From Asanoa hainanensis (GTDB taxonomy: Bacteria > Actinomycetota > Actinomycetes > Mycobacteriales > Micromonosporaceae), in assembly GCF_900188485.1 (NCBI RefSeq), contig NZ_FZPH01000013.1, positions 124,001 to 188,000 of the forward strand: 64,000 bases of DNA, in the 5' to 3' direction. The position numbers and the translations under genes were made by a program. The notes under the pieces were generated by a model. That model was not told the DNA's origin. It did not search any database and was given only the letters and a program-made list of their open reading frames with translations. Shown here piece by piece: positions 15,794-45,508 of this stretch (position 1 is the stretch's first letter; each line of letters begins with the position of its first letter).

Positions 15794-16531
15794 ATGATCA
15801 AGGGCGTGTCCCGCCCGCCGCAGATCTTCGCCGTCTCGCCCGCTGCCCGTCCGGCCGGCACGCCGCCTGACCAGCGCAGCGCCCTGCTCAATCACGCGAT
15901 CTCGCTGACCGGCGTACCCCGGGCCAAGGTCTGCTTCGTCACCACCGCGGTCGGCGACGACCCGGCGGCGATCGCCAGCCTCTACACCGTGCTGCGGGAC
16001 TCCACCGACGCCGAGCCGAGCCACTTACAGCTCTTCCCCCAGCCGAACGTCCGTGACGTGCGATCCTTCCTGCTCTCACGCGACCTGATCTGGGTCAGCG
16101 GCGGCAGCGTGGTCAACCTGCTGGCGGTCTGGCGTGCGCACCGGCTCGACGAGATCATGCGGGACTGCTGGGAGGCCGGCGTCCTGCTCGGCGGCGGCAG
16201 CGCGGGCAGCATCTGCTGGCACACCGGCGGCACCACCGACTCGTTCTCCGACGACCTCGACCCGGTGACCGACGCGCTGGGCTTCCTGCCGCACAGCAAC
16301 GGTGTGCACCACGACTACGCGCACCAGCCCCGGCGGGCGCTGTTCCAGCGGTTGGTCGACGACGGGACCCTGCCACCGGGCTACGCCACCGACGACGGGG
16401 TCGGGCTGCACTACGTGGGCACCGAGCTCGTCGAGGCGGTCACCTCCGCTCCCGGGGGCGACGCGTACCGGGTCGAGCCCGGGACGCACCAGCCGCTGCA
16501 CGCTCGGGTGATCGCGCAGCGGCCGGTCTAG
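15794..16531 (+). CDS. Peptidase E (family S51)
   Basis: A 245-residue protein of the dipeptidase E/cyanophycinase-like S51 family. The nucleophile Ser sits in GGGSAGSICW, the preceding strand is IWVSGGSVVNLL, and a His (NGVHHDY) follows. S51 enzymes cleave Asp-X dipeptides and are cytosolic. ATG 15794 is used; GTG 15806 (VSRPPQIF) is an equally possible start. Convergent with the permease gene, overlapping by 4 bp. Confidence 0.85.
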   Translation: MIKGVSRPPQIFAVSPAARPAGTPPDQRSALLNHAISLTGVPRAKVCFVTTAVGDDPAAIASLYTVLRDSTDAEPSHLQLFPQPNVRDVRSFLLSRDLIWVSGGSVVNLLAVWRAHRLDEIMRDCWEAGVLLGGGSAGSICWHTGGTTDSFSDDLDPVTDALGFLPHSNGVHHDYAHQPRRALFQRLVDDGTLPPGYATDDGVGLHYVGTELVEAVTSAPGGDAYRVEPGTHQPLHARVIAQRPV

Positions 16532-17394
16532 TCGGTCTGGAGCTCTGCCTTTCCAGTGGCTCCCGACGGCTCCCCCGGCTCCTCCAGGCTGCCGTACTTG
16601 GCCAGCATCAGGCTGGACGCGATCGCCAGCGCGAAGCCGACCGCCGCGACGGGGATGAAGCCGCGCCGCGTGGTGTCACCCAACGCGAGCACGCCGACCA
16701 CCGACGGAAGCACGGTCTCGCCAATCACCAGGCCGGCGGTCACGGTCGTCACCGAGGCCTTCTGGAGGCCGATCGTGTAGAAGACGAAGGCCAGGCCGCC
16801 GGCGACGACCAGGGTGTAGATCTCCGGACCGCTGAACCAGTCGACGAAGTCGACGTCCGAGATCGACCGCGCGGCCAGGGCCACGATCCCGAAGAACAGG
16901 CCGCCGACCAGACCGAGGGTCGCCGCCCGCAGCGGGTCCTTGAGCTTGATCGCCGCCAGACCGAGCAGGGCCAGCACGGGTACGGCGATCGTCAGGCCGA
17001 TCCGGAACGTCCAGGAAGGCTGGTCGGCGTTCTCGCTCCCGGCCGAGACGCCGAGCAGCGCGAGACCGACGCAGACGCCGCCGACCGCCAGCCATTGGAT
17101 GGTGCCGAGCCGCAGCTTGAGCAGCGGGATGGCGAGCACGGCGGTCACCGCGAGGCTGGCCGCCAGGGCCGCCTGCACCAGGAAGATGGGCAGGCTGCGC
17201 AGGGCGATGAACTGGAACACGAAGCCGGCGCCGTCGAGGGCCAGGCCGAGCAGGTACCGCCACTGCGCGAACACCCCCATCAGCGACTTCGCGCTGACGG
17301 TGTCCGAGCTCGGCGCCCGGCGGGCGGCTATCGCCTGGAACACCGACGCCGAGCCGTAGCAGATCGCCGAAACGATCGCCAGGATCAGGCCCAT
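16528..17394 (-). CDS. DMT/EamA-like membrane permease
   Basis: A 288-residue integral membrane protein with about nine hydrophobic helices, including MGLILAIVSAICYGSASVFQ and two similar halves as in drug/metabolite transporters and NIPA-type proteins. TACGGT lies six bases before the ATG, indicating a leaderless transcript. A short hydrophilic C-terminal tail follows. Substrate unknown. Confidence 0.8.
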   Translation of the reverse strand: MGLILAIVSAICYGSASVFQAIAARRAPSSDTVSAKSLMGVFAQWRYLLGLALDGAGFVFQFIALRSLPIFLVQAALAASLAVTAVLAIPLLKLRLGTIQWLAVGGVCVGLALLGVSAGSENADQPSWTFRIGLTIAVPVLALLGLAAIKLKDPLRAATLGLVGGLFFGIVALAARSISDVDFVDWFSGPEIYTLVVAGGLAFVFYTIGLQKASVTTVTAGLVIGETVLPSVVGVLALGDTTRRGFIPVAAVGFALAIASSLMLAKYGSLEEPGEPSGATGKAELQTD

Positions 17395-17443: not shown

Positions 17444-17899
17444 TTATCCCTGCGGCTCCGGACTGGGCTCTTCCGGGCTCGGGCTCGTGTCCGCGGGGCT
17501 CGGTTCCGGGCTCGGCGTCTGGTCCTCGGGCACGACGGTCGGCTGGACGGCCGGCTCCGGTGCTTCGGTCGGCTTCGGCCGCTTGGGTTTTGGCGACGGT
17601 GCCGCCAAGGTGGTGGCCATCGGCACCAGCGTGGGCGCGTCGTCGTAGACGTCGTACTGGGCTGCCGGCGAGGGCACCCGCTCGTGCGGCGCGGTGCCCA
17701 TCGCCCCCGAGCCGTCGGCCGGGGTGCCGGTGGCCTGGCGCTGACCGAGCACCCAGCCGGCCGCGACGACGACGGGCAGGCCGAGCCCGAGGATCAGCGC
17801 GAGGGTCTTCTTCGGCGTGAGCTGCACACCGGTTACACCGTTCGGGGCGGGCGCGAGGTTACGGCCCGTGACGTCGCCGGTCGTCGGTTCTTCGGTCAT
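17444..17899 (-). CDS. Single-pass membrane protein with Pro/Glu-rich tail
   Basis: A 151-residue protein with a cytoplasmic N-terminus of ~30 residues, one transmembrane helix (about 32-52) and an extracellular low-complexity region rich in Pro, Ser, Glu and Thr (PSPEPSPADTSPSPEEPSPE). It overlaps the FnIII-like gene by 4 bp and is the last gene of the exported-protein operon read from 20624 to 17444. Perhaps a wall-spanning stalk; no family recognised. Confidence 0.7.
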   Translation of the reverse strand: MTEEPTTGDVTGRNLAPAPNGVTGVQLTPKKTLALILGLGLPVVVAAGWVLGQRQATGTPADGSGAMGTAPHERVPSPAAQYDVYDDAPTLVPMATTLAAPSPKPKRPKPTEAPEPAVQPTVVPEDQTPSPEPSPADTSPSPEEPSPEPQG

Positions 17900-19113
17900 G
17901 TGGCGACGAGCACGACGGCCGCGTCGCTGGTGGCCGTCGATGGGCTCACCTCGGCCGCCGGCTCGCTGGTCGCGGCGGCGTCGGTGGCGGGGGCGTCGGG
18001 CTCACCCTCGGTGCCCGCCGTGCTGGTGTCACCGGTCGCCGGCTCGTCGCCGCCGGCCGACTCGGTCGTACTCGGCGTGCCGCCGGGTTCGGCCGTCTCG
18101 GTGGTCTCCGTGCCCGGCGTGGGCGCTGCGGGGGTCTCCGGGGTGCCCGTGCCCGGGTCGGTGCCTGGGTTCGTGCCTAGGTCCGTGCCGCCGGTCGTCG
18201 GGTCGGCACCGGCGGTCGGATCGGCCGGCGCGGTGGCCGCCTCGTCCGGTGCCGGTGCGACGCGCGGCGCGCCGAGCGTGACCACGATCCGGCCCTGCAC
18301 CTCGGCCAGCGTCGCGTCGAAGGTGGCGTTGGCGGGCACCGTCGCGGGCGGCACCGCGAGGGGTCCGAAGACCCGGGTGGCGCCGTCGTCGACCGTCAGC
18401 ACCGGCTGCGCTCCGGCCTCGGCCACCACGGTGACCGGGCGGGCTTTGCCGTCCCAGCCGGTGACGACGTCGCCGGGTGCGACCGGTGCCCCGCCCGCGT
18501 AGGTCAGCGTGTCGTCCGTGCCGAGCACCCCGTCGGTGCCGGGCTGCACGGTCCAGGCCGGCGGACTGCCCGGCGCGGGGGTGGCCGCCGGCTGGGCGGG
18601 GTCGCCGATCGCGACGACGGCGGGACCCGCGGCCGGACCGGCCGGCTTCTCCACCGCCGGGTCGGGGACCACCACGGCCTTGCCGTCGGCAGCGACGATC
18701 ACGGCGTCGCTCTTGGCACTCTCGGGCCCGGTCCAGCCGCCCTTGACCGGCACCACCGTGTAGCGCCACGAGCCGGTCGGCACGCCCGAGTCGGCACAGG
18801 ACTCCTTGGCGACGTTCTCCTCACAGGTCCCCTGTGGCTGCTGCACAGAGCCGGCCAGGTCGTACCGCTGTATGCGGTAGCTGTCGACCTTGCGCTCGCC
18901 GAACGTGTTGGGCGTCCACGACACGGTGACCACGTTGCCGGCCGCGCTGACGACCGGCTTGTTGCCGGGCGAGAGCGTCGCGGTCTCCGCGGTCAACACG
19001 ACCTCGTCACTCTGCACCCGCCACGCGGCGATCGCCGCCCCGGCGCCGGCAACCAACGTGACAGCGGCAATGCCACCGAGCACGGCGGGGGACGTGGCGA
19101 TCAGTCTCTTCAC
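17896..19113 (-). CDS. Exported FnIII-like protein with Ala/Thr/Pro tail
   Basis: A 405-residue exported protein. Its signal region ends AAIAAWRVQSDE, resembling the A-x-A-x-W junction of its neighbours. Residues ~40-140 look like a fibronectin type III domain (VVTVSWTPN, YRIQRYDLAG, SWRYTVVPVKG) with one Cys pair. A second beta-rich region follows, and the last ~130 residues are Thr/Pro/Ala/Glu-rich. GTG 19113 overlaps the upstream stop (GTGA). Likely displayed on the surface as a structural or adhesive protein; no catalytic motif seen. Confidence 0.75.
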   Translation of the reverse strand: MKRLIATSPAVLGGIAAVTLVAGAGAAIAAWRVQSDEVVLTAETATLSPGNKPVVSAAGNVVTVSWTPNTFGERKVDSYRIQRYDLAGSVQQPQGTCEENVAKESCADSGVPTGSWRYTVVPVKGGWTGPESAKSDAVIVAADGKAVVVPDPAVEKPAGPAAGPAVVAIGDPAQPAATPAPGSPPAWTVQPGTDGVLGTDDTLTYAGGAPVAPGDVVTGWDGKARPVTVVAEAGAQPVLTVDDGATRVFGPLAVPPATVPANATFDATLAEVQGRIVVTLGAPRVAPAPDEAATAPADPTAGADPTTGGTDLGTNPGTDPGTGTPETPAAPTPGTETTETAEPGGTPSTTESAGGDEPATGDTSTAGTEGEPDAPATDAAATSEPAAEVSPSTATSDAAVVLVAT

Positions 19114-19607
19114 TTGTTCACCTTCGTGGCTACACCGGTGATCCGGATGGTGAAGGTGACCCCCGAGCATTCGTTGGTCACCGAGGCGGGCATCCGGATC
19201 GGAATCGAACCGGCATCACGCGACTGACGGGCGCGCACCGTTATCGGCAGCCGGCCGTCGTGCGAACCAGCGATGAGGTTGCCCGGGTGGGCGGGGCAGG
19301 CCCGGCGGGAGCTCTTGACCACCTCGCCGCTGATGCGGCTGATGCTCAGATCGAAGTGGTACGGGTTGCGCACCCGCACCGCCATCGATCGCTGCGCCCC
19401 TGGGTAGAGGCCGGCGACCGAGGTGCCCTCGATCGTGAAGCTGTGCGCGCCGGGCGCAGGCGAGTGCGGCTTCTGCCACGGCCAGCGGAGCGTGGAGAAG
19501 TTCGAGAGCTTCAGCTCGGACTCGTTGGGGACGGCGACCGAACCGGTCGCCGCCCCCGCCAGGCTGAGCACCATCGCGACGGCGGCCAGCGCCGTAGTCA
19601 GTTTCAC
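19110..19607 (-). CDS. Exported TasA/camelysin-like family protein A
   Basis: A 165-residue exported protein with a signal peptide at residues 1-25. It shares with its neighbours GLYPGAQRSMAVRVRNPYHF (P69-G70) and a late ECSGVTFTIRI motif. Two Cys probably form a disulphide. The start is GTG 19605-19607; the longer open frame upstream overlaps the neighbouring gene and is spurious. It lies 11 bp after the previous gene. Fold and role are inferred from shared motifs only. Confidence 0.72.
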   Translation of the reverse strand: MKLTTALAAVAMVLSLAGAATGSVAVPNESELKLSNFSTLRWPWQKPHSPAPGAHSFTIEGTSVAGLYPGAQRSMAVRVRNPYHFDLSISRISGEVVKSSRRACPAHPGNLIAGSHDGRLPITVRARQSRDAGSIPIRMPASVTNECSGVTFTIRITGVATKVNK

Positions 19608-19618
19608 GGCGTCTTCTC

Positions 19619-20095
19619 TCAGTCCGGCAGCGTCACGCCGGCGAGCGCCAGCGTGATCTCGAATGACGCGCCCTGGCACGCCTCCGGGGCGTTCTTCTTC
19701 ATCACGACGGCGTCGGGCACCGTGAACTGCTCCGTGTCGCCGGCATCTACGCGTTGCGCCAACGCGTTCTGGTCGATCACGACGACGCTGCTGGCCGTGC
19801 ATCCGTCGGCAAGGTGCTCCGCGTCCACCTGCACCGCCGCGCCCGAGGTGAAGGACTGCACCTCGACGGCGAAGTCGTTGGGGTTGGTGACGCTGACCAC
19901 GATCGTGGCCTTGGCGCCTGGGTAGAGGTCGGACTGTGGAGCGGCCTTCGCCTGGAGCGCCGTCACGCTCCCCGCTTTGGCGGTGCCCGTGGCGGTGCCC
20001 GTGACGCTCCATGCCGCCCAGGCCACGCTCGCGATCCCCGCCACGATGACGGCGACGAGCGTGATCACCGCAGTTCGCTGGGACACGTTACGCAT
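19619..20095 (-). CDS. Exported TasA/camelysin-like family protein B
   Basis: A 158-residue protein with an N-terminal hydrophobic segment ending VAWAAWSVTGTATG. Its beta-rich body includes LYPGAKATIVVSVTNPNDF (P59-G60) and ACQGASFEITL near the C-terminus. The junction A-W-A-x-W and the following TGTATG resemble the signal region of SipW-dependent proteins such as TasA (TWAAFND). One intramolecular Cys pair is possible. Paralogue of the 20175, 19110 and 21285 products. Confidence 0.75.
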   Translation of the reverse strand: MRNVSQRTAVITLVAVIVAGIASVAWAAWSVTGTATGTAKAGSVTALQAKAAPQSDLYPGAKATIVVSVTNPNDFAVEVQSFTSGAAVQVDAEHLADGCTASSVVVIDQNALAQRVDAGDTEQFTVPDAVVMKKNAPEACQGASFEITLALAGVTLPD

Positions 20096-20174
20096 CGAGG
20101 TTCGCTCCTACGGAGAAGGCTTGGAAAGTGCCGCGGTGGGGCAGCTGAACCAGCCGCCCCACCGCACGTTCGGA

Positions 20175-20624
20175 TCACGGTTGGGTGCTGAGGCCTGACA
20201 CCGTCGTCGTGAGCGTGAAGGTCGCGCCCTGGCACGCATCCGGGGTGCTGAGGGCCATCTGAGCGCCGTTGACCACCGTCTGCTCGTGGTAACCCTTCTG
20301 CAGGATCACCGGGTTCGTCGGCGGCGTGAAGGACACATTGCTTCCGGCACAGTTCGCCTTGTCGGAAACGATCGTGGGCGAACCCCACGACGTGATCTGC
20401 ACCGGGAAGTCGTTGGGGTTGTTCGACTTGACCAGGAGGTCCTTCGCGCCACCGGGGACCAGGTTGTAGGCCTCGCCGGTGACGGTGATCGTCTGGGCCG
20501 TGGCAGCCGTCGCGGTCGCGGTCGCGGTGCCGGTGATCGACCACACCGCCCAGGCAACTCCGCCGCTGATGCCGAGGGCGGCGACGCCGATGATTACGCC
20601 GGCGCGCTTGGTGATCTTCCGCAT
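20175..20624 (-). CDS. Exported TasA/camelysin-like family protein C
   Basis: A 149-residue protein, first gene of the minus-strand operon. The hydrophobic N-terminus ends GGVAWAVWSITGTATA (A24-W28). Then come NLVPGGAKDLLVKSNNPNDF (P58-G59) and ACQGATFTLTT. AAAGGGAA precedes the ATG. Like its paralogues it has no catalytic motif and looks like a small beta-sandwich for the surface. A 79-bp gap separates it from protein B. Confidence 0.75.
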   Translation of the reverse strand: MRKITKRAGVIIGVAALGISGGVAWAVWSITGTATATATAATAQTITVTGEAYNLVPGGAKDLLVKSNNPNDFPVQITSWGSPTIVSDKANCAGSNVSFTPPTNPVILQKGYHEQTVVNGAQMALSTPDACQGATFTLTTTVSGLSTQP

Positions 20625-21284
20625 GATGATTCCCTTTCATAAAGCCGAACAGGCGGGAGTGGGCGAAAAGAATTCGGTGTTGGCGCCGGTCCGGTGGAGG
20701 CGGTCCGGCGCCGAGGACTACTTTGCCGCAGTTAGCGCTTTTCGCTCAACAAGCAACCGTCCGACCTTTGCTGTGCACAAATAGCGCCAGTCAACCCCGA
20801 CGGCTTAACTCTTTTGAGTGGTCCGATATGCCCGTTTGGTCGACTTCATCAACGCCCGGCGATCCGCCATCACCGCCCTGACCTGCTAAAACGCCGCCGT
20901 AGCACATCGGTTAAGCGAATCGATATCGGTGTCATCCGAAACAGTGACCGAATCTCCAATTCGCGAGGTGCCTTCATTTCGCCATTGCGCGCAGCACGCG
21001 AACCAAACGCACAAATAACGGCGGCCTTCTTCCACCGGAATTGCAGCATTGGGGTCCGTCACCTATTCGCGGTCACCCGAGCTGTCAGCCCAACAATCTG
21101 ATTCGGCCGGGTGGATCACTTGTCGGCGAACAACCACGAACCATGTTCTCTATGCCGCGATCTCACCAGTTCGGGAAGAGTCTTCTGGGTCGCCGCAACC
21201 GACGGAAACACTCCGGATTGTCCGCGACACCCGCCATGAACACCGCGCCGGTCTGGAACGCCGGCACCCTCTAGGAGACCTCCC
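20625..21284. other. AT-richer divergent control region of the exported-protein locus
   Basis: About 660 bp without a supported gene, visibly poorer in G+C than its surroundings (for example around 20700-20960 and 21000-21180). It separates the divergent paralogues at 20624 and 21285 and presumably holds both promoters and regulatory sites. Open frames inside it (such as 20814-21101) look non-coding. No clear palindromic operator was identified. Confidence 0.5.
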
Positions 21285-21836
21285 TTGCAGAAGCGTTCGA
21301 AGCGCATCCTCGCCGCCACCCTCGCCGCCGCAGGCGTCCTCGTCGCGAGCGGCATCGCATACGCGACCTGGGTCCAGGCGGACGACGTCGCGGTCAACGG
21401 ATCCAGCGAGACCTTCAAGCCCATCACCCTGTCCGGCGAGTGGCTTGGCCGCGACAAGGTGCAGACCGGTGACGCTGGTCTGCTTCCCGGGGAGTCCGGC
21501 GTCGTCAAGCTGACCCTCCCGGTCTCCGCGAACAACACCATCAACGCGCGGATCGCGACCATCATCGGAACGAACATCACCGCCGACCACATCTCCGGCA
21601 CCGACAACGACCACTGTGCCCAGTACCTGTCGGAGGGCACCTACACGCCGACAGCCATCCTCGCTCCCGGCACGACGAACGAGATCTACCTTCTGAGGGC
21701 GGTCAAGCTGATCGACGCTGCACCGGTGACCTGCCAAGGCATGACGTTCCAGACCGAGTGGACCGTTTCCCTCGAGCCGGATCGGACCGCACCGACCGGC
21801 GGCACAAGCTTCGACCTGTCGCCGTCCAACAACTGA
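21285..21836 (+). CDS. Exported TasA/camelysin-like family protein D
   Basis: A 183-residue exported protein, divergent paralogue of the operon's proteins. The N-terminus ends SGIAYATWVQADD (A25-W29), then GLLPGESGVVKLTLP (P68-G69) and a late TCQGMTFQTEW. Two Cys (DNDHC, VTC) could pair. It starts at TTG 21285 behind TAGGAG. A terminator follows. It is the most divergent of the four; a separate promoter may let it be expressed differently. Confidence 0.72.
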   Translation: MQKRSKRILAATLAAAGVLVASGIAYATWVQADDVAVNGSSETFKPITLSGEWLGRDKVQTGDAGLLPGESGVVKLTLPVSANNTINARIATIIGTNITADHISGTDNDHCAQYLSEGTYTPTAILAPGTTNEIYLLRAVKLIDAAPVTCQGMTFQTEWTVSLEPDRTAPTGGTSFDLSPSNN

Positions 21837-44659: not shown

Positions 44660-45508
44660 ATGAGTCGCGACACCGCACTCGTTTCGGCCGACTGGGCCGA
44701 GAAGAACCTCGGCGCCTCCGGCGTGGTCTTCGTCGAGGTCGACGAGGACACCAACGCCTACGACGGTGGCCACCTGCCCGGCGCCATCAAGCTCGACTGG
44801 AAGACCGACCTCCAGGACCCGGTCCGCCGGGACTTCGTCAACAAGGAGCAGTTCGAGGCGCTGCTCTCCGCCCGGGGCATCGGCAACGACGACACCGTGG
44901 TCCTCTACGGCGGCAACAACAACTGGTTCGCGGCCTACGCGTACTGGTACTTCAAGCTCTACGGCCACGGCGACGTCAAGCTGCTCGACGGTGGCCGCAA
45001 GAAGTGGGAGCTCGACGCCCGGCCGCTGGTCAAGGACCTGCCGAGCCGCGAGCAGACCACCTACTCGGCGCAGGAGCCGGACACCACGATCCGCGCCTTC
45101 CGCGACGAGGTGGTCAAGGCGATCGGCACCCAGAACCTGGTCGACGTCCGCTCCCCCGACGAGTACGCCGGCCGCCTGCTGGCCCCGGCGCACCTTCCGC
45201 AGGAGCAGGCGCAGCGCGGTGGCCACATCCCGACCGCGGTGTCCGTGCCGTGGTCCAAGGCCGCCAACGAGGACGGCACGTTCAAGACCGATGACGAGCT
45301 CCGCGCCATCTACTCGGCCGCCGGTCTCGACGAGGGCAAGGACACCATCGCGTACTGCCGGATCGGCGAGCGTTCCTCGCACACCTGGTTCGTGCTCAAG
45401 GAGCTGCTCGGGCACGCCAACGTGAAGAACTACGACGGTTCCTGGACCGAGTACGGCTCCCTCGTCGGCGTGCCCGTCGCGCTCGGCGACGAGCCGGGGA
45501 AGGCGTGA
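44660..45508 (+). CDS. cysA: Thiosulfate sulfurtransferase (rhodanese)
   Basis: A 282-residue tandem rhodanese that moves sulfane sulfur from thiosulfate to an acceptor, forming a persulfide at the Cys in YCRIGERSSHTWF. The N-terminal rhodanese domain is inactive, as usual. M. tuberculosis CysA2/CysA3 are close in length. AGGAG precedes ATG 44660. It is coupled to the sseC-like gene by GTGA overlap and is probably under cysteine control through the leader. Confidence 0.93.
   Translation: MSRDTALVSADWAEKNLGASGVVFVEVDEDTNAYDGGHLPGAIKLDWKTDLQDPVRRDFVNKEQFEALLSARGIGNDDTVVLYGGNNNWFAAYAYWYFKLYGHGDVKLLDGGRKKWELDARPLVKDLPSREQTTYSAQEPDTTIRAFRDEVVKAIGTQNLVDVRSPDEYAGRLLAPAHLPQEQAQRGGHIPTAVSVPWSKAANEDGTFKTDDELRAIYSAAGLDEGKDTIAYCRIGERSSHTWFVLKELLGHANVKNYDGSWTEYGSLVGVPVALGDEPGKA

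Follow-up and report, generated by a model that had tools for sequence, protein, structure and literature searches.

Organization of the locus

The window analysed here, a stretch of 64,000 nucleotides from the soil actinobacterium Asanoa hainanensis, contains a locus that was originally predicted to encode exported TasA/camelysin-like paralogues together with FnIII-type and stalk proteins. All six of its genes, named A to F, were present in the gene calls of the window, with revised starts for C and D. On the minus strand, gene A (20175..20624, 149 aa; signal end VAWA-VW, two conserved cysteines) and gene B (19619..20095, 158 aa; signal end VAWA-AW) encode members of a TasA-like family. They are accompanied by gene C (19110..19607, 165 aa, revised GTG start), a family member without the AWAxW junction located immediately before gene D. 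The latter (17896..19113, minus strand, 405 aa, revised GTG start) encodes an FnIII-type protein with an AIA-AW junction, a second domain and a Pro/Thr-rich tail, while the product of gene E (17444..17899, minus strand, 151 aa) shows a single hydrophobic segment followed by a Pro/Ser/Thr-rich tail and is restricted to the genus. The predicted close array of A to E is borne out by the revised coordinates, with gaps of 79 nt (A-B) and 11 nt (B-C) and overlaps of 4 nt for both C-D and D-E. Gene F (21285..21836, plus strand, 183 aa, TTG start) is a divergent paralogue with the signal end IAYA-TW and a highly variable body.

Genes F and A are separated by an intergenic control region of 660 bp (20625..21284), which shows conserved blocks in the alignment of six genus members. 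It is indeed AT-richer as predicted, because its GC content is 58.5% and it falls into the two lowest of the 1-kb bins, which range from 63 to 76% GC over the window. Neither an Rfam family nor a tRNA was found in the window. A gene for an EamA/NIPA-like transporter (16528..17394, minus strand) lies 49 nt downstream of E; its scores of 33.0 bits for EamA and 27.5 bits for NIPA are both above the Pfam cut-offs, it is found in all six genus members, and it probably stands outside the system.

A, B, C and F form one protein family

The sequence observation behind the original prediction, i.e. motifs common to small exported proteins, is confirmed at the level of the protein sequences. Of the 71 gene calls for the window, only A, B, C and F carry the late motif [AET]C[QS]Gx[TS]F, and A, B, D and F share the junction A[WYI]AxW with one further gene (44660-45508). 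The PG...N motif could only partly be reproduced: the re-coded pattern matched A, B and C but missed F due to a longer spacing, and it also matched D and two other genes, hence this motif is unspecific when taken alone. Moreover, a profile was trained on 27 A/B-type relatives with the window sequences excluded and E-values calculated as for 8000 proteins. It matched B (9.6e-52), A (1.8e-39), C (2.1e-12) and F (4.9e-12), and C (1.5e-13) and F (3.6e-8) were also matched when it was trained without the first 34 residues. With A as query in the own genome, B was found at 2.5e-17 and C at just 0.037. Judged by their sequences, A, B, C and F are thus one protein family with two near-invariant cysteines. 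F represents a distinct subfamily that is present in 24 of 300 family genomes, and C-like copies immediately before D exist also in four other genomes (G028, G032, G033 and G122).

In total, 43 loci of the A/B/C/F family from 37 genomes were collected. Two weak matches of the family profile in the phylum sample (G222, G260) were excluded from this count, because on rescoring they proved to be camelysin-type proteins beside a SipW-like peptidase; the sequences of two further weak positives (G021, G042) were left out.

Relation to TasA and camelysin

TasA is the fibre protein of Bacillus biofilms. The family profile (A1, 38 members) was compared with a second profile (A6), built from SipW-linked proteins of the TasA/camelysin type in related genomes; A6 itself matches solved TasA structures (8aur, E 7.7e-12; 5of1, E 1.5e-11). 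With the signal included, hhalign aligned both profiles with a probability of 93.2 (E 2.9e-7) over 132 columns, and the alignment is collinear with common LxPG, N and QG positions. After removal of the signal, deep profiles still gave probabilities of 64-74% and scores of 32-34, whereas 60 column shuffles did not exceed 14.4 and the reversed control reached 17.7. Shallow signal-free profiles gave 26%, and 3% once three camelysin-type rows were removed. The signal-free scores exceed the shuffled and reversed controls in those comparisons that had such controls, with probabilities from 3 to 74% that vary with profile depth and choice of sequences.

In contrast to A6, no TasA was found at E up to 1 when A1 was compared with solved structures. 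Membership in the known families did not hold, because no window protein scored above the cut-offs of PF12389 and TIGR04088; PF12389 gave no match in the own genome or among the window proteins, and none at E up to 0.1 among the 38 A1 members, and no window protein was among the matches to the TIGR04088 signal class. TIGR04090 grazed B at E 0.078, which is under the cut-off, and single relatives out of 38 were grazed by TIGR04089 (5.7e-5) and TIGR04088 (0.0035) and two by the TasA model NF046066 (best 0.0065), all far below the cut-off where shown. The family was therefore not assigned to PF12389, TIGR04088 or TIGR04090. An AlphaFold2 model of B predicts a beta-sandwich for residues 47-158 with pLDDT mostly between 70 and 90; its fold comparison returned generic beta-sandwiches, and TasA, CalY and camelysin were absent among the 50 matches listed, which does not speak against a TasA-like fold.

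Collectively, the TasA/camelysin interpretation is partly supported by these sequence comparisons: it survives as probable remote homology beyond the signal peptide, not as membership by cut-off. Like TasA of Bacillus subtilis and camelysin/CalY (PF12389), the window family appears to consist of exported beta-sandwich proteins with an aromatic residue just past the junction, an LxPG followed by an N, and a C-terminal QG before a beta-strand, and the probable remote profile homology runs via camelysin-type proteins of related genomes. It differs from them by scores under the PF12389 cut-off, the lack of a SipW gene, the AxA junction, two near-invariant cysteines, a shorter domain and an FnIII partner.

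Signal junction and SipW-type peptidases

Known systems of TasA-like fibres are tied to SipW, the dedicated peptidase that is normally encoded alongside. The prediction that no such peptidase is present held: the top-scoring hit of TIGR02228 in this genome reached 25.8 bits (cut-off 51.85) and covered model positions 14-73 only, and the scan of 22 kb around the locus found no SipW-type peptidase by this model. A SipW-like peptidase occurs beside its substrate in 30 of 30 camelysin-type loci (the best 30 matches out of 107 positive genomes), and in 12 of 12 genomes with a PF12389 match one lies no more than 2.5 kb away from it, whereas only one of the 43 A/B/C/F-family loci contains one. The SipW-type signal junction had to be given up, since the family has AxA (43 of 48 proteins) and not the TxG/TxA of the SipW-linked camelysin types (25 of 26). 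Such a junction suits ordinary signal peptidase I. The family keeps the aromatic residue at the second position past the junction, and the final Q of the TasA-type ATQ is not conserved in it. The SipW-linked camelysin-type operons of Actinomycetota (e.g. G037, G059, G075) come from the same bacterial order and differ from the window family in the adjoining peptidase and the junction.

The partner proteins D and E

The FnIII gene D is the usual partner of the family: of the 43 loci, 26 have a D homologue next to it, and where D is present the two are neighbours in 14 of 15 relatives and in all 11 genomes of the phylum sample. In the remaining 17 loci no D was found by the same scan, though one of these genomes, G073, has D by another search. 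Co-occurrence of the genes is valid for the paralogues and the FnIII gene, which are adjacent across the phylum sample, but not for the whole set, because E is confined to the genus and A and C are present in just five and three of its six members, respectively. E was detected in all six members, gave no other match among 728 called proteins and belongs to no Pfam family. The FnIII label of D stands only weakly, as its match to Pfam fn3 (PF00041) is sub-threshold (E 0.08, 13.6 bits versus a cut-off of 25). The D homologue in G037 reaches 17.0 bits; in this genome camelysin-type genes, SipW and D are found side by side without the A/B/C/F family, which indicates that D is common to both kinds of loci.

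In its accessory position beside putative subunits, D can be compared with TapA of B. subtilis and CapP of B. cereus, the comparison being one of position and layout. TapA is described as a TasA accessory protein with a folded part and a long low-complexity tail (PMC10151520), a layout also seen in D, and CapP is presented as the accessory protein of CalY (PMC13082335). By this analogy, one might guess that D functions like TapA or CapP.

Variation within the genus

The family proteins differ strikingly among closely related species, as judged from their sequences. In all 15 pairs of F from the six genus members, the first 27 residues are 74-93% identical and the remainder 21-38%. Gene A of the window is merely 33-35% identical at the protein level to the gene at the same place in four genus members, despite flanking genes that are 85-100% identical to those of the relative G001. 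Similarly, the stretches of the intergenic region beside F and A show 0.82-0.91 nucleotide identity to G001, which drops to 0.4-0.7 in the adjoining genes. In comparison with G001, A, B and F gave dS values of 0.65-0.96 and dN values of 0.38-0.73, with dS near saturation and poor alignments, while 13 flanking genes gave dS of 0.07-0.31 and dN up to 0.06.

Possible function and alternative explanations

We give about an even chance to the explanation that A, B, C and F form a hypervariable branch within the TasA/camelysin-like superfamily, whose members are extracellular beta-sandwich proteins, and that this branch does without SipW; we infer fibre assembly for it. The precursors would be exported via Sec, with ordinary signal peptidase I making the cut. 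Once released, the N-terminal segment (W-S-x-T-G...) could serve as donor strand as in TasA, in which F29 near the mature N-terminus is described to sit in a conserved strand-binding site (PMC10151520). Subunits might assemble into a thin fibre or a coat at the surface of cells or spores; D, plus E in the genus Asanoa, could act as anchor, initiator or cap. A precedent for a SipW-free route is the archaeal thread Saci_0406, described as a donor-strand filament for whose subunit cleavage by ordinary signal peptidase I has been predicted (PMC9715654); this archaeal protein is likened here by assembly and processing, not by sequence. Exposure to phages or rivals could drive the exchange or fast divergence of the F, A and B bodies, and would account for their change under constant promoters and signal peptides.

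A plausible competitor, although it would seem somewhat improbable on balance, is that each of these beta-sandwich proteins works on its own at the surface or after secretion and does not polymerise, for example as an adhesin, coat or ligand-binding protein; with TasA they would share the export signal and an old common fold and not the assembly. However, the match to the camelysin-type profile runs collinearly through the entire mature domain and scores higher than the controls, and tandem paralogues with one constant partner resemble fibre operons, for example calY1/calY2 as described for Bacillus cereus (PMC10151520). The variation within the genus would also be expected from a polymorphic system for recognition or antagonism, in which constant signal peptides carry exchangeable bodies for kin recognition, phage decoy or competition; the conserved start of F before its divergent remainder, the divergence of A between conserved flanks and the sharp fall of nucleotide identity beside conserved promoters all fit this idea. 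It is nevertheless quite unlikely, because no immunity-like partner gene was seen at the locus, the variable bodies all retain the cysteines and the fold of a single family, and variability is common to any exposed surface protein.

We regard it as very unlikely that the proteins are ordinary SipW substrates, with the peptidase encoded elsewhere or too divergent for recognition. In this regard, the distant member G078 exceeds the TIGR04088 cut-off in the genome search (21.0 bits; 17.5 and under the cut-off by hmmscan), ten of 25 family-bearing relatives have a TIGR02228 match above cut-off elsewhere in the genome, and in G059 a SipW-like gene and a family gene are 2,056 nt apart. Yet the G059 peptidase adjoins its own camelysin-type gene, the other 15 relatives, own genus included, lack a TIGR02228 match above cut-off, and the junction is AxA.

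Returning to the SipW-independent branch, its most far-reaching version would be a second kind of TasA-like fibre in Actinomycetota, made SipW-free by a change from T to A at junction position -3, with a constant FnIII partner and, in Asanoa, subunit bodies swapped between species on constant promoters and signals, i.e. a hypervariable surface filament. This is put forward tentatively, since taken as a whole it is rather unlikely. In the open-access literature, at the level of index entries, no account of Micromonosporaceae TasA-like proteins or of a SipW-free branch was found. If SipW-free processing were true, the dedicated peptidase would be dispensable and the critical residue revealed. 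Mycelial actinobacteria would then have a matrix or coat protein class that is unnamed in the families searched, and the subunits, with constant signals and swapped bodies, would offer a natural set in which the causes of surface variation could be studied.

Other identities considered

The A1 profile grazed a flagellin chain among the solved structures at 0.11 and one of its 38 members grazed PF01917 at 0.023; an archaeal flagellin/pilin identity was set aside, because by eye the N-terminus has no prepilin site. LEA_2 grazed six of the 38 members (best 0.025), which was taken as a sign of a common Ig-like fold only. A phage or plasmid origin was rejected: tblastn with B as query retrieved nothing from phages and, from plasmids, one partial match, to an Arthrobacter megaplasmid with 36.6% identity over 62%.

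A SipW-free family of exported proteins

The locus represents a real, phylum-wide SipW-free branch beside the TasA/camelysin kind of proteins; fibre formation by this branch is putative. It is situated in an 8.6-Mb assembly, and the genes flanking it are also found in Asanoa iriomotensis. As originally predicted, five genes follow each other in a row on the minus strand, namely A (20175-20624), B (19619-20095, 79 nt after A), C (19110-19607, 11 nt after B), D (17896-19113, 4-nt overlap with C) and E (17444-17899, 4-nt overlap with D), while the sixth gene F (21285-21836, plus strand, TTG start) is divergent from A across 660 bp. Genes A, B, C and F encode small exported TasA-like paralogues, D an FnIII-type exported protein and E a stalk protein. 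The best test of the proposed relatedness of the four small proteins was a leave-out profile, which was trained with 27 A/B-type relatives and excluded the window sequences. It matched C (2.1e-12) as well as F (4.9e-12), also when the training rows were stripped of their first 34 residues (1.5e-13 and 3.6e-8, respectively), hence the four proteins are one family at the sequence level. In an alignment of 38 members, the second Cys never varies, and conservation reaches at least 90% for each of the first Cys, L, P, G and N.

The predicted lack of a SipW-like peptidase was verified. In the own genome, no match to the SipW-type model TIGR02228 exceeded the cut-off (best partial match 25.8 versus 51.85 bits). 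Among 101 relatives, the family was found in 25, TIGR02228 over cut-off in 27 and both in 10; 15 of the 25 family-bearing relatives have no such match over cut-off. A six-frame scan covering 43 family loci in 37 genomes revealed a SipW-like gene at only one of them (G059), 2,056 nt from the family gene and adjoining its own camelysin-type gene. Such a gene occurred within about 3.6 kb at all 30 camelysin-type control loci, which were the best 30 matches of 107 positive genomes among 397. In this G059 locus (L060, 13993-15128), the peptidase scores 48.5 bits, below the TIGR02228 cut-off, and its SAAFT-type camelysin-like neighbor was named by no Pfam or NCBIfam model.

The junction at the end of the signal segment differs accordingly. 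Counting only sequences with an aromatic residue at -2 (48 of 69 family members, 26 of 42 camelysin types), 43 of these 48 family sequences carry AxA, the classical site of ordinary signal peptidase I, and 25 of the 26 camelysin-type ones carry TxG or TxA. An A[WYI]AxW string (AYAYW) also appears, probably by chance, in an unrelated called gene (44660-45508).

Relation to TasA and camelysin

The suggested likeness to TasA/camelysin stood in profile comparisons but not at library cut-offs, because A, B, C and F all remained under those of Pfam and NCBIfam. The TasA/camelysin model PF12389 gave no match in the own genome; the Bacillus subtilis control did match. Twelve of the 101 relatives matched PF12389, eight over cut-off, and all 12 had a TIGR02228 match at most 2.5 kb away. 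The profile A6, built from these matches and G037, retrieved the solved TasA structures 8aur (7.7e-12) and 5of1 (1.5e-11), and its alignment to them brings the LKPGD, N and YQG positions into register. It matched the family profile A1 with a probability of 93.2 (E 2.9e-7, 132 columns), whereby LYPG/PGD, N/N and CQG/NxxQG were paired. The junction contributes much to this match, because a comparison restricted to the mature parts reached 26.3% (score 26.5; maximum of 60 shuffles 13.4, reversed 14.8) and, without three SAAFT-type rows, 3.2% (score 20.4). Deeper profiles of the mature parts, made from 69 family and 42 camelysin-type members, yielded 74.0% (score 33.6; maximum of 60 shuffles 14.4, reversed 17.7), and another cut of the same sequences 64.0% (score 32.1), the 60 shuffles belonging to the first cut. 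The match of the family to an FnIII profile (88.4% over 33 columns) was all signal and dropped to 0.2% without it. Collectively, these scores suggest, rather than prove, that both types are remote homologues.

The partner gene D and putative fibre formation

Of the 43 family loci, 26 contain a D homologue, at a distance of 3-222 nt from a family gene. D was found in 15 of the 101 relatives, 14 of which carry the family (Fisher p 1.1e-9), and according to the listed coordinates both are adjacent in all 14. In the phylum sample, all 11 D-positive genomes among 296 belong to the 17 family-positive ones. Within the genus, C and A are present in three and five of six members, respectively; E occurs in all six. 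The exception is G037, a member of the Micromonosporaceae, in which two camelysin-type genes (one with 22.9 bits, PF12389 cut-off 22.5), a SipW-like gene (100.4 bits) and a D homologue stand side by side without the family (L145, 9698-13175). This arrangement corresponds to the locus in the window, but in a SipW-bound form, and D is therefore common to SipW-bound and SipW-free kinds.

The sequences show a common family with export-type N-termini, the AxA junction, the missing SipW and the constant D. The precursors might be exported via Sec and cut at the junction by signal peptidase I. Cleavage would free an N-terminal strand starting x-W-S, which could be donated between subunits as in TasA, and the subunits may then assemble into a thin fibre or coat, with D and E keeping it in place. 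The conserved strand-binding-site residues of TasA include an aromatic one, F29, close to the N-terminus of the mature protein (PMC10151520), and the family likewise has an aromatic residue at this place. An archaeal thread, described in PMC9715654 as a donor-strand filament for which a signal peptidase I site is predicted, provides a precedent for such filaments.

Variation within the genus

Compared with the genus member G001, 16 flanking genes are 85-100% identical, whereas A, B, C and F show only 35%, 63%, 65% and 42% identity. At the nucleotide level, identity declines from about 0.9 to only 0.4-0.7 over F, A, B and the beginning of C, and is again 0.98 where C ends; the stretches beside F and A keep 0.82-0.91. 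The dS values are raised in B (0.72), A (0.65) and F (0.96) relative to 13 flanking genes (0.07-0.31), which, with the caveat of dS saturation, speaks for replacement of these gene bodies rather than for amino-acid selection alone. For F, each of the 15 pairs among the six genus members shows 74-93% identity within the first 27 residues and 21-38% in the remainder. Partial F-type copies were also observed outside the locus on two contigs of G005 (C45, C158).

The A-F intergenic region (20625-21284) contains several blocks nearly invariant in six species, for example around GCATAGAGAACACGGT and GGCGCCGGACCGCCTCCACCGGGCCGGCGCC, which are better conserved than the flanking genes and possibly represent promoters or regulator sites. 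In G003 this region comprises 836 bp (L054, 7334-8169) with about 200 extra bases at its end; gene A looks decayed there, because these bases open like the gene A start (ATGCGCGCGTTCACGAAGCGG...).
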